Assembly: GCA_016934015.1 (NCBI GenBank)
Contig: JAFGTQ010000043.1
Location: forward strand, 1-32,691
Direction of reading: 5' to 3'
Length of the DNA: 32,691 bases
Origin: Acholeplasmataceae bacterium
Lineage (GTDB): Bacteria; Bacillota_I; Bacilli_A; Acholeplasmatales; Acholeplasmataceae
The translations under genes were made by a program, and so were the position numbers. The notes beneath the pieces were generated by a model, which saw only the letters and a list, made by a program, of their open reading frames with translations, was not told the origin of the DNA and searched no databases. Shown here piece after piece: positions 28,235-32,681 of this stretch (its first letter is position 1; every line of letters begins with the position of its first letter).

Positions 28235-29371
28235 TTATCCCCGATGATGTTGTTCTTTTATGTCATACATTTTTTTATCTAACAATTTAAAAAATTCATT
28301 TAAATCTTGATGCTCATTTGGATTATAAATGAGCCCACCTGATGATACTTGTAATTCAAAAGGATACTCTTTCTTTTGATTAAACTCATGCAAGCCTTCA
28401 TTCATTTTTTCTAATATTTCATCAAGTCTTGAAGGGCTTTTAGATTCAAATATAATCGCGAATTCATCGCCACCTGTTCGAGCAACAAAATCATCTTCAT
28501 GCACACTTTCTCTTAAAATATTACTAAAAATGATAAGTGCTTGATCTCCAACATGATGTAGAAACTGATCATTAATTTTTTTGAAATCATCAATATCAAT
28601 TAAAATCCCACCCATCACATAGCCTTTACGCAAGTTTTGAGATTTTATCGATAGTATGCGATCATATTCTCTTCGGTTAGATAAACCTGTTAGGTGATCC
28701 GTATTAGTTAATTGTGATTGAATATAAATATAGACAATCATTAAAGATAATGCTACCCCTGGAAAAATAAGTGATAATCCTTCAAAGGATAATTGAATGA
28801 ACCCACCAATCATCGGTGGAATCGGGAAAATTAAAAGTGCGTAAAAGTCACCTTTGTGAACTCGATCTTTATATTTAATAGTTTTCAACATAGTTAAAAT
28901 AATTAGCCCATAGGTAATGATGGAGATCGCATAGAAATAATTGCCTCTTTCATAAATATTTCCTGCTGTAATCCTAAATAAAAAATCACCATTGATCGAT
29001 AAAATTGAAAAAAAGATGACCGCAATTTGAATTGGTGCAATCCATAAAACAATTTTCTTAAAGTTCTTTGTTGTATCATTAATTGTATATTCAGCATATA
29101 ACATCCATAATCCTGCAATTACAATGTGTAGTATAAAATACATCACTAGTGAAAATGGCAACCAAAATTTTGCCAAAGGAGTATTTATCCCATTGGCAAA
29201 AACGAAAGTTATATCCATCAATAAAATACCTACGGTTGTCCATAGAATAAATCGATAAAGCTTATTCATCACTGATTTTCTAATATTTTGTTTTCTAATG
29301 CTAAAAAGCAAAATCAACAACAGTACAATTGAAAAAAATGATAATTGTGTTTGTATGCCTATATTTATCAT
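28235..29371 (-). CDS. membrane diguanylate cyclase (GGDEF)
   Basis: A 378-residue protein. The N-terminal half has about seven membrane helices (to about residue 218) in the style of 7TM sensory kinases. The GGDEF domain follows, with TDHLTGLSNRREYD, DIDDFKKINDQF and an intact catalytic GGDEF at 300-304, so it should make c-di-GMP from GTP. The product-inhibition site, usually RxxD, reads HEDD (His in place of Arg). Start ATG 29371 lies 8 nt after GAGG. It is 41 nt downstream of the photolyase gene with no terminator between, so both are probably on one transcript. The input signal is unknown. Confidence 0.9.
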   Translation of the reverse strand: MINIGIQTQLSFFSIVLLLILLFSIRKQNIRKSVMNKLYRFILWTTVGILLMDITFVFANGINTPLAKFWLPFSLVMYFILHIVIAGLWMLYAEYTINDTTKNFKKIVLWIAPIQIAVIFFSILSINGDFLFRITAGNIYERGNYFYAISIITYGLIILTMLKTIKYKDRVHKGDFYALLIFPIPPMIGGFIQLSFEGLSLIFPGVALSLMIVYIYIQSQLTNTDHLTGLSNRREYDRILSIKSQNLRKGYVMGGILIDIDDFKKINDQFLHHVGDQALIIFSNILRESVHEDDFVARTGGDEFAIIFESKSPSRLDEILEKMNEGLHEFNQKKEYPFELQVSSGGLIYNPNEHQDLNEFFKLLDKKMYDIKEQHHRG

Positions 29372-29412
29372 GTACAATACCTCATTTCAACATTCATTCT
29401 ACCAAAGAAATG

Positions 29413-30798
29413 TTACTTTGTAAAAAGATTCATACGTTTAACGTAAGGCTCCATATTAAACTTTCTTAAAAGCCCTGCTTGATTCATGTATCGTAGTTTC
29501 CCAAAAATCGGTCGTTCTTGCCACGGACGATCATGTTTACCAAAACACCATGCAATCCCAGTAAAACTATTGGCATCTCTTCCATCAATAAAATATCGAT
29601 TATTTAAATACGTGATGATTTCAAATGCTTCTTTGTGTGTATTTGACCATTCAATAATTTTTTTAGCCCAATACATTCGCATATAATTATGCATATATCC
29701 TGTAAGTACCATTTCTTTCATCGCTGCATTAAAATAAGGATCATGCGTTTGGAAGTTAATGTAATCTTCGATTGAATAAAGATAATTTCTTAGATCTTCA
29801 TGATGCATCTCCATGGTTTGATAAGCCCATGGTTCAGTCATGGTTTCAAACTTATCATATCCTTTTTGATAGTAAACATAATTATGTGCGAGTTCTCTTC
29901 GAATGATTAGTTGTTCTACAAATCCATCAAAAGCTTCACCCGTAATTTGGTGTTGCAGAGTCAGTTGATAGAGTCTTTCATAAAGTTCTAAAGATGATAT
30001 TTGACCAAAATGAAGATACATTGATAATTTTGATGTTAAATTCAAACTTGGATCATTACTTTCTGGATATCTATTAATCTTTTCACTGACAAAATCATGA
30101 AATAGTTTCATTCCTTCGATATATCCACCATGATAAATTGGACTCTTTTTCACAGTGTGATCAATCGATAATTGAGTGACTAATTGTTTGATATCATCTA
30201 AATCATGATCACTTTTTATATTTAAAAGAGTTTGGTTTTTTACAACATGTAAGTGAAAGAAATCTCGAAAATTTTCAATTAGCTTGCGAATTTTAGGCCG
30301 AATCGTATAAGCACCATATTCCACCTTTTGTGAAGCAACTTCAACAGGGACCATTAAATCGGTATCAATCATTTCCACATGTAAATCATTTTCTTGATCG
30401 AATATATATTTAAGAACTTCTTGTCTCATTTCTTTTTGAATTTTTAAATATCCCATATCCATAAATAATGCTTCTGCATCATTTAATAGAGGCTTTATCT
30501 CTTCAACTGGATGACCAATCTTTAAAACAAATGTGATTTTAAAATGAGCAGAAATACGAGAAACTTCCTTTAATCCTTCAAGCATAAAGGTATAGTGCCT
30601 TTCATTTGCTTCAGGATAATGAGGGGTTAAGCCAAAAAATATAACAATCGGTAAATTTTTGTCATTACCATATTGTATGGCTTCATTAAGCGCATGATTA
30701 AAATGGATGCGCTGTGATTGTTGCATCCAATATAAGACATATTTTTTTGTAATTTCTCGTTCTTTGGAATTTATAATTTTACGTCTTAGTTCATTCAT
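29413..30798 (-). CDS. phr: class II CPD photolyase
   Basis: A 461-residue FAD- and light-dependent repair enzyme for cyclobutane pyrimidine dimers. It is class II rather than class I: the N-terminal fold begins YVLYWMQQSQRIHFNHALNEA, and the FAD domain holds SKLSMYLHFGQIS, FVEQLIIRRELAHNYVYY, DPYFNAAMKEMVLTGYMHNYMRMYWAKKIIEW and NNRYFIDGRDANSFTGIAWCFGKHDRPW. GAGG lies 6 nt before ATG 30798. It is divergent from the heliorhodopsin gene across 131 bp and followed by a diguanylate cyclase, so the cluster is devoted to light. Confidence 0.94.
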   Translation of the reverse strand: MNELRRKIINSKEREITKKYVLYWMQQSQRIHFNHALNEAIQYGNDKNLPIVIFFGLTPHYPEANERHYTFMLEGLKEVSRISAHFKITFVLKIGHPVEEIKPLLNDAEALFMDMGYLKIQKEMRQEVLKYIFDQENDLHVEMIDTDLMVPVEVASQKVEYGAYTIRPKIRKLIENFRDFFHLHVVKNQTLLNIKSDHDLDDIKQLVTQLSIDHTVKKSPIYHGGYIEGMKLFHDFVSEKINRYPESNDPSLNLTSKLSMYLHFGQISSLELYERLYQLTLQHQITGEAFDGFVEQLIIRRELAHNYVYYQKGYDKFETMTEPWAYQTMEMHHEDLRNYLYSIEDYINFQTHDPYFNAAMKEMVLTGYMHNYMRMYWAKKIIEWSNTHKEAFEIITYLNNRYFIDGRDANSFTGIAWCFGKHDRPWQERPIFGKLRYMNQAGLLRKFNMEPYVKRMNLFTK

Positions 30799-30820
30799 AC
30801 CTTACCTCACATACATCATT

Positions 30821-30829
30821 ATTTTACCA
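30821..30829 (-). promoter_or_regulatory. photolyase promoter, extended -10 TGGTAAAAT
   Basis: On the minus strand TGG stands directly before TAAAAT, with no recognisable -35. Start predicted near 30814, about 16 nt before the ATG. Confidence 0.4.
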
Positions 30830-30876
30830 CATCTATGTAAGTTTAAATTGTGCGAATATTGAATCATTTTAGATGA

Positions 30877-30901
30877 AAATCTTATTTAGATTTGATATGA
30901 T
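30877..30901 (+). promoter_or_regulatory. heliorhodopsin promoter with adjacent inverted repeat
   Basis: Extended -10 TGATATGAT at 30893-30901. The inverted repeat AAATCT-5 nt-AGATTT (30877-30893) fills the space where the -35 would be and could bind a regulator. Confidence 0.45.
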
Positions 30902-30929
30902 GAAAGTGTAAACTATTAGGAGGTTACAA

Positions 30930-31721
30930 ATGGATAATCAAAAACTTTTAAAACTTAAACGCTTTAACATGATTATGGGAGGATTACACCTCATTCAAGG
31001 TCTTATGATGTTAGTCTTAGCATCGACAGTCATTCAACAGATTGCTGAATTTCAACCAACCATCACACAAAACTATCTTGCATTTGTTCAAGGTCAAGGT
31101 TTAGTTCTACAGTCAAAAGACTTATTTGATCTACCATTCGGCATTTTTGTAGCAAGCTTCTTACTAATCTCAGCATTAGCACATGCACTTATTTCATTTC
31201 CAAAAAAACTTAACGACACCTATAATAAAGATCTACAAAAAGGTATCAATAAATTTAGATGGTTTGAATATGCATTAAGTTCTTCTGTGATGATTGTCTT
31301 AATTGCTACATTATTTGGTGTTTATGATATCGCTTCTCTAACACTTATCTTTATTGTCAATGCTGCAATGAACTTATTCGGTCTTGATATGGAAATTATT
31401 AACTCAAAACGCGAAGAAGGCGAAAAACTCAATTGGGGTCCATTCATTTGGGGTTCAATTGCAGGGATTGCACCTTGGATAGTCATTATCATCTATATGA
31501 CTGGTAATGGCAACTATAGCCAAGTTCCATGGTTTGTATGGGCTATTGTTGGTACATATTTCGTTGCTTTCAACACATTCCCAATTAACATGATTTTACA
31601 ATATAAGAAGATTGGTAAATGGAAAGACTATCTATATGGCGAAAGAACTTACATTGTTTTAAGTCTTGTTGCTAAATCAATTCTTGCTTGGCTCGTCTTA
31701 TTTGGAGCAATGCAACCTTAA
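30930..31721 (+). CDS. heliorhodopsin
   Basis: A 263-residue, seven-helix retinal protein of the heliorhodopsin family, distinct from type 1 rhodopsins. The Schiff-base Lys249 is in YIVLSLVAKSILAW, counterion Glu113 in RWFEYALSSSVMIVLIA, and the family's key histidines are His20 (GGLHLIQG) and His85 (ALAHAL), matching His23, His80, Glu107 and Lys241 of protein 48C12. IAGIAPWIVIIIYM and ILQYKKIGKWKDYLYGERTYIV are further family stretches. The N-terminus is expected inside the cell. AGGAGG lies 6 nt before ATG. No retinal-forming gene is in the window, so retinal may come from elsewhere. Heliorhodopsins do not pump ions and act in sensing or signalling. Confidence 0.94.
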   Translation: MDNQKLLKLKRFNMIMGGLHLIQGLMMLVLASTVIQQIAEFQPTITQNYLAFVQGQGLVLQSKDLFDLPFGIFVASFLLISALAHALISFPKKLNDTYNKDLQKGINKFRWFEYALSSSVMIVLIATLFGVYDIASLTLIFIVNAAMNLFGLDMEIINSKREEGEKLNWGPFIWGSIAGIAPWIVIIIYMTGNGNYSQVPWFVWAIVGTYFVAFNTFPINMILQYKKIGKWKDYLYGERTYIVLSLVAKSILAWLVLFGAMQP

Positions 31722-31739
31722 TTCAATTAACTAAAAAGA

Positions 31740-31761
31740 AAAGACCAAAGTTTTGGTCTTT
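31740..31761. terminator. bidirectional terminator between heliorhodopsin and arcC
   Basis: AAAGACCAAA and TTTGGTCTTT (10-bp arms, 2-nt centre) with T-runs on both strands, between convergent genes. Confidence 0.85.
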
Positions 31762-31763
31762 TT

Positions 31764-32681
31764 TTATGGCATAATAACCGTTCCACTCATCTGTTTAAAT
31801 GCTTCACTTGCAAATTCTAGTGATGCAATGACAGCAGGTTTGTGTGTGGATTCAACAAAAGCAATTGCAGCTTCAATTTTTGGAAGCATTGAACCTTTTT
31901 TAAAATGTTCATCTTTCAAATACTCTTTCAATTCTGCGACAGTTACTTTTTTCAAAGCTCTTTGTGAAGGTTTATTAAAATCAAGATAGACGTGATCAAC
32001 TGCAGTTAGAATAATAAGTTCATCTGCTTTTATAATTTCCGCCATTTTAGCTGATGCATAATCTTTATCAATCACAGCATCAATACCTACTAAATGACCT
32101 TCTCTAATGACGACTGGAATTCCTCCACCACCAGCAGCAATCACGATATGTTGATGCTCAAGTAATCTTGAGATGCTTTCTTTTTCAATAATATCGATGG
32201 GTTTAGGACTCGCAATGACTCTTCTATATCCTCTTCCACTATCTTCAACCATTGTATAGCCTTGACTTTTTTCTAAAGCTTGCGCTTCTATTTCAGAATA
32301 AAAAGAACCAATTGGTTTTGTAAGATGCTTAAAAGCTAGATCTTTCTCATCCACTAAAACTTGTGTAACCACAGTTGAAATGGGGCGTACTTGGTGTCTT
32401 TGTTGCATCATGTTATATATCGCATTTTGAATATGATATCCAATATATCCTTGACTCATAGCACCACATTCAGGAAATGGCATGTCTGGTGTTGATGAAG
32501 ATTCACTAAAAGCCAAATTGATCATCCCAACTTGTGGTCCATTTCCATGAACAATGACAATGTCATGATTCATTTCAATAAGTGGATAAATTGCTTTTGC
32601 TACATGAACAAGTAATCTTTTTTGTTCATCTGCAGTTTTACCAAGTGCATTACCACCTAAAGAGATAACATACCTAGACAT
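31764..32681 (-). CDS. arcC: carbamate kinase
   Basis: A 305-residue amino-acid-kinase-fold enzyme that makes ATP from carbamoyl phosphate and ADP. ISLGGNAL at the N-terminus, HGNGPQVG, ECGAMSQGYIGY, RRVIASPKP, AAGGGGIPV and IDKDYASAKMA are all typical of ArcC. It is usually the last step of arginine deiminase or agmatine deiminase pathways; the partner genes would lie beyond the right edge. GGAGAAGAAT precedes ATG 32681, only 10 nt from the window end, so an upstream gene of the same operon is likely. The stop codon is 2 nt from the shared terminator. Confidence 0.94.
   Translation of the reverse strand: MSRYVISLGGNALGKTADEQKRLLVHVAKAIYPLIEMNHDIVIVHGNGPQVGMINLAFSESSSTPDMPFPECGAMSQGYIGYHIQNAIYNMMQQRHQVRPISTVVTQVLVDEKDLAFKHLTKPIGSFYSEIEAQALEKSQGYTMVEDSGRGYRRVIASPKPIDIIEKESISRLLEHQHIVIAAGGGGIPVVIREGHLVGIDAVIDKDYASAKMAEIIKADELIILTAVDHVYLDFNKPSQRALKKVTVAELKEYLKDEHFKKGSMLPKIEAAIAFVESTHKPAVIASLEFASEAFKQMSGTVIMP

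Follow-up and report, generated by a model that had tools for sequence, protein, structure and literature searches.

Does a heliorhodopsin (HeR) gene that lies head to head with a class II CPD photolyase gene (PHR2) in a wall-less bacterium mark a working partnership of the two proteins? The question was raised by the stretch of DNA analyzed here (hereafter, the window; 32,691 nucleotides), which represents contig 42 in an Acholeplasmataceae MAG (wall-less Mollicutes) whose assembly totals 1.17 Mb and is 83% complete. There is no settled function for HeRs, and a partnership with photolyase has been measured in a single genus. A divergent pair in 23 genomes of one order, together with co-occurrence outside it, provides comparative support from wall-less bacteria. 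The features of the locus are as follows.

28235-29377, minus strand: membrane diguanylate cyclase (GGDEF) gene, 35 bp downstream of PHR2
29413-30798, minus strand: class II CPD photolyase gene (PHR2), 461 aa; equivalents of Trp381, Trp388 and Tyr345 kept, Phe in place of the Trp360 equivalent
30799-30929, no strand: divergent intergenic region between HeR and PHR2, 131 bp
30873-30901, plus strand: promoter-like match with an extended -10 in the HeR/PHR2 gap
30918-30923: AGGAGG ribosome-binding site for HeR
30930-31721, plus strand: HeR gene, 263 aa; Lys249 (Schiff base), Glu113 (counterion position), His20 and His85
31739-31762: terminator-like hairpin with a 10-bp stem, between HeR and the amino acid kinase gene
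31764-32681, minus strand: amino acid kinase family gene (provisionally named carbamate-kinase-like), convergent with HeR

The two genes and their products

Both the HeR and PHR2 open reading frames were intact under table 11. The HeR product matched Pfam PF18761 with 325 bits (cut-off, 26.7) and NCBIfam NF038020 with 301 bits (cut-off, 100), in each case over the full length, and all six of its solved-structure matches were heliorhodopsins. Lys249, Glu113, His20 and His85 were invariant across 19 aligned HeRs and also aligned with the solved HeRs, indicating that the Schiff-base Lys in the last helix, the Glu counterion and the two conserved His residues are all present. Judged by its sequence, the protein is a genuine heliorhodopsin. 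A second genome of the same genus (G079) encodes a HeR that is 98% identical to it.

The PHR2 product matched TIGR00591 (class II phr2) over its full length with 450 bits, which is under the NCBI curated cut-off of 550 bits, and the runner-up family reached 50 bits. Its closest PDB chains were class II enzymes (E about 2e-82), so the best match was to class II and not to class I, cryptochrome or DASH. The photolyase of Trichococcus flocculiformis, TfPHR (L154), also fell under the cut-off with 526 bits, and 550 bits was reached nowhere among the genomes of the order or the phylum samples. The cut-off is therefore a naming threshold and not a class boundary, and by these matches the window enzyme is a genuine class II CPD photolyase. 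The first-pass annotation had called both genes at these coordinates, with the same four HeR residues and the same photolyase class, and was right in each respect.

The electron-transfer chain of class II enzymes, Trp381-Trp360-Trp388-Tyr345 (M. mazei numbering), is almost strictly conserved (PMC5885780). The window PHR2 keeps the equivalents of Trp381, Trp388 and Tyr345 and has Phe at the Trp360 position, within the motif THDPYFNAAM, whereas TfPHR has Trp as this middle residue. Phe occupies the position in most Mycoplasmatota PHR2s; Trichococcus, Erysipelothrix and a small number of relatives have Trp. This replacement may slow FAD photoactivation, while repair itself need not suffer. Phe at this position was also considered as a mark of HeR-linked photolyases and rejected, since unlinked Mycoplasmatota enzymes have Phe and the Trichococcus enzyme does not.

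As the HeR and PHR2 genes of the window are on opposite strands, they have no common transcript. The terminator-like hairpin 3' of HeR suggests that the HeR transcript stops there, and the GGDEF gene, whose product combines a multi-spanning membrane part with a C-terminal GGDEF domain, is probably on one transcript with PHR2. Promoter-like matches in the 131-bp region were not above the shuffled expectation. On reading the divergent intergenic sequences by eye, no conspicuous shared regulatory motif was noticed apart from ordinary promoter and ribosome-binding elements, and an Rfam search returned no element except a tRNA.

The Trichococcus precedent and conservation of the pair

In T. flocculiformis, Shim et al. 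(2022) found that TfHeR binds TfPHR with a Kd of 21.7 uM, raises TfPHR repair about 3-fold and extends repair to green light; they assigned TfPHR to the class 2 CPD photolyases and reported HeR-containing photolyase operons in 12 genera (PMC9769723). As in that system, the window HeR is encoded beside a class II CPD photolyase, and it is 75% identical to TfHeR over residues 8-263. Unlike the Trichococcus genes, which lie on one strand in the order PHR2 - DUF2238 - HeR, the window genes are divergent and without DUF2238. The first-pass annotation was right that a HeR-photolyase link is reported from Trichococcus (PMC9769723), but its idea that the class II enzyme was the new element fails, because TfPHR itself belongs to class II, both as published and by its TIGR00591 score. 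As to its suggestion of an independent case, the tree placed the PHR2s of Trichococcus apart from those of Acholeplasmataceae, separated by unlinked enzymes, and one old pairing with later losses may also account for this. The class II HeR-photolyase pairing is already published, and the window locus adds to this known kind a divergent, well-conserved member.

Loss of R162, K227 or E97 in TfHeR abolished or weakened TfPHR binding (PMC9769723), and the corresponding residues of the window HeR are Arg161, Lys227 and Asp96. These residues were rejected as a diagnostic of PHR2 partnership; they are about equally common in HeRs unlinked to PHR2, and their presence in the window HeR therefore proves nothing. 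A published survey listed photolyase and DUF2177 among ten frequent HeR neighbour groups and counted genes predicted in one promoter/operon with HeR (PMC11109279), so that divergent pairs such as that of the window would be left out. Photolyase and DUF2177 recurred in the neighbourhoods found here, similar to the photolyase group of that survey, whereas the carotenoid and tocopherol-cyclase-like neighbours described below are outside its ten groups.

The order sample comprised 160 genomes, with an intact HeR in 33, PHR2 in 44 and both in 31. HeR and PHR2 lay within 7 kb of each other in 23 of the 31, always divergently (23/23), compared with a chance expectation for such proximity of about 0.8% per genome (Fisher p = 2e-20 and binomial p = 9e-42, which are descriptive only as the genomes are related). 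This strongly counters the refuting case named in the first-pass annotation, namely that no relative has the two genes side by side. The linked genomes come mostly from one family. In 8 of the 31 genomes, the assembly does not link the genes, in 3 of them because the genes are on different contigs.

Among other ARRANGEMENTS, divergent pairs were found with gaps of 8 bp in Tenericutes HGW-1 (L141), 107 bp in a Bacilli MAG (L125) and 168 bp in an Erysipelothrix MAG (L165). HeR precedes PHR2 co-directionally in G211, and in a further family (L231-L233) it is divergent from a DegV/Dak2 - (DUF1295) - PHR2 - DUF2177 operon. Two Anaerolineaceae records have HeR preceded by a class I photolyase. Separately, the neighbourhood of HeR and the class II enzyme in genus g14 (L096, L098, L090) also encodes a class I photolyase together with a photolyase-related protein of the DPRP type, placing three photolyase families around one HeR.

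Presence and absence of the genes were lopsided. HeR occurred without PHR2 in 2 of 33 genomes of the order, both incomplete assemblies, and PHR2 without an intact HeR in 13 of 44, of which 4 keep HeR remnants or frameshifted copies. Outside the order, PHR2 was present in 13 of the 16 HeR genomes of the phylum-wide sample, mostly unlinked. Therefore, HeR looks like an accessory of PHR2, and not the reverse, although exposure of the habitat to light could instead explain the co-occurrence. The gene identities, the arrangement, the conservation of linkage and the co-occurrence support a conserved divergent pair.

The larger cluster and the probable role of the pair

Clusters of other Acholeplasmataceae, such as those of Peloplasma aerotolerans (L110) and UBA5769 (L131), share the divergent HeR/PHR2 core of the window, and many are flanked in the same way, with FeoB and GGDEF genes on one side and the kinase gene on the other. 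In 21 family genomes, a tocopherol-cyclase-like gene (~320 aa, Pfam PF14249) is the next gene 3' of HeR and has the same orientation; 20 of these come from the neighbourhood count, and the other is G076, in which HeR had been overlooked by the ORF caller. The gene is also in tandem with HeR, 91 bp upstream on the same strand, in a complete genome of 1,496,992 bp (G005; L061), and follows HeR after 25 bp in a Clostridia MAG (L122). The predicted fold of its product (mean pLDDT 90) resembles AttH, kievitone hydratase and fungal cyclases (pericyclases). As modeled, the protein thus resembles a double lipocalin, with lipocalin-type barrels of the kind that handle hydrophobic molecules, and its name does not imply a tocopherol pathway. 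On the opposite strand, several genomes carry the series phytoene-desaturase-family gene (TIGR02734) - phytoene/squalene synthase - 219-aa membrane protein - DUF92 - PHR2. From its motifs, we take the 219-aa protein to be perhaps a phytol/dolichol-kinase relative.

In contrast to these clusters, the window and UBA6181 are without tocopherol-cyclase-like and carotenoid genes; the place between HeR and the amino acid kinase gene, where relatives have the tocopherol-cyclase-like gene, lacks it in the window. Neither this gene nor an SQS_PSY (phytoene synthase) gene was found in the window's genus, which makes its pair of two genes look reduced. Our literature search found no paper joining heliorhodopsin with tocopherol or with Acholeplasma, and the published description of P. 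aerotolerans does not mention a rhodopsin or photolyase. The recurrent tocopherol-cyclase-like neighbour offers a new clue to the partners of heliorhodopsins; this association and the slot history described below are the new leads.

One tentative proposal, to which we give a minor share of belief, is that HeR in Acholeplasmataceae is part of a unit devoted to photoprotection. HeR would be co-transcribed with a lipocalin-like protein that makes or carries its terpenoid (retinal, carotenoid or chromanol) and would face a PHR2 operon that includes carotenoid/prenyl-alcohol genes in many species, the window's genus having a reduced version. If true, this would define a new class of heliorhodopsin partner and a possible chromophore route for HeR hosts without known retinal synthesis. 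Blh/BCD genes were above the cut-off in no genome of the order, and retinal must therefore come from elsewhere. With these genes apparently missing throughout the order, the question of the chromophore becomes a concrete one.

For the pair itself, we lean towards a role of HeR as a membrane light sensor or helper of a photoprotection and DNA-repair module, expressed with PHR2 and contacting and modulating it. Both genes would be expressed from the common 131-bp region in a light-dependent manner, and HeR, having bound scavenged retinal, would act as the membrane light sensor for light-driven repair and photoprotection. Contact with PHR2 would be made, as reported for TfHeR-TfPHR, by cytoplasmic loops of HeR that carry positive charge (Arg161, Lys227), and by the same analogy this contact would modulate PHR2 and stimulate repair. 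We infer the physical partnership of the window proteins from the Trichococcus pair, whose weak published binding (the Kd given above) counts against this reading. The cultured relative P. aerotolerans makes it testable.

A light-stress regulon without contact is a reasonable but less probable explanation. Here, light or oxidative stress would switch on the HeR, photolyase, carotenoid and tocopherol-cyclase-like genes together, and the target of HeR would be elsewhere (membrane, transporter or redox). The presumed divergent promoters of HeR and PHR2 fit such a regulon, as do the other photoprotection genes nearby, which in g14 include the class I photolyase and DPRP-type genes, and the oxidative-stress neighbours of HeR known elsewhere (PMC8612252). 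Nevertheless, direct binding and stimulation of repair have been measured in Trichococcus (PMC9769723), and the window retains just HeR and PHR2 as a pair.

Far less likely is signaling by HeR through the membrane diguanylate cyclase, with light altering c-di-GMP and the photolyase as a mere neighbour. The spacing of 35 bp between PHR2 and the GGDEF gene in the window, and the presence of a GGDEF family gene beside PHR2 in several relatives, would suit this scheme; however, crt-containing clusters are without the cyclase at this position, yet HeR and PHR2 stay, and the cyclase is present where the slot has no HeR (L245, L246). Least credible of all is a chance neighbourhood without function passed down in one bacterial family, which agrees with the concentration of linked genomes in that family but not with linkage in other families and arrangements, with co-occurrence that persists where the genes are unlinked, or with a slot filled by HeRs of different lineages.

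History of the heliorhodopsin slot

The HeRs in the PHR2-facing slot did not form one clade; in the careful tree, they were monophyletic in 0% of bootstrap trees, and AU tests of their monophyly gave p = 1.6e-4 for all and 1e-7 without genus g14, values weakened by the naming of the groups after the first tree was seen. The slot was thus occupied over time by HeRs of different lineages. The slot HeR of g14 shares only 54-60% identity with those slot HeRs to which it was compared and grouped at 100/100 with HeRs located elsewhere in genomes G023, G024, G046, G035 and G150. In G023 and G024 (L245, L246), the slot is without HeR and PHR2 faces the tocopherol-cyclase-like gene directly. Another HeR lineage occupies the slot in G036 and G078, and the HeR of G076, when added to the tree, was placed near this lineage with weak support.

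The simplest reading of these sequences is replacement of HeR in place within the slot, for which the case is firmer in g14 (with its 100/100 grouping and low identity) than in G036/G078; independent assembly of the slot or outward transfer of HeR is possible. A clean in-place replacement in every case was tempered, since the placement of the G076 HeR near the G078/G036 lineage leaves transfer out of the family possible there.

A search for HeR on phages gave no match, and plasmids gave two distant matches with 46-60% identity; the 10.5-kb Lactococcus petauri plasmid NZ_CP141705.1 carries an annotated heliorhodopsin that is ~60% identical to the window HeR. Three heliorhodopsin genes were observed on one contig of another genome (G355, contig 2; L235; contig place 28924-29661). 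Furthermore, a second, very different HeR type is present in the family (L092-L095, L097, L087). It ends in ILLA or ILLT, not QP, is unlinked to class II photolyase and, at three loci, is followed by a gene of cluster c37 (133-169 aa).
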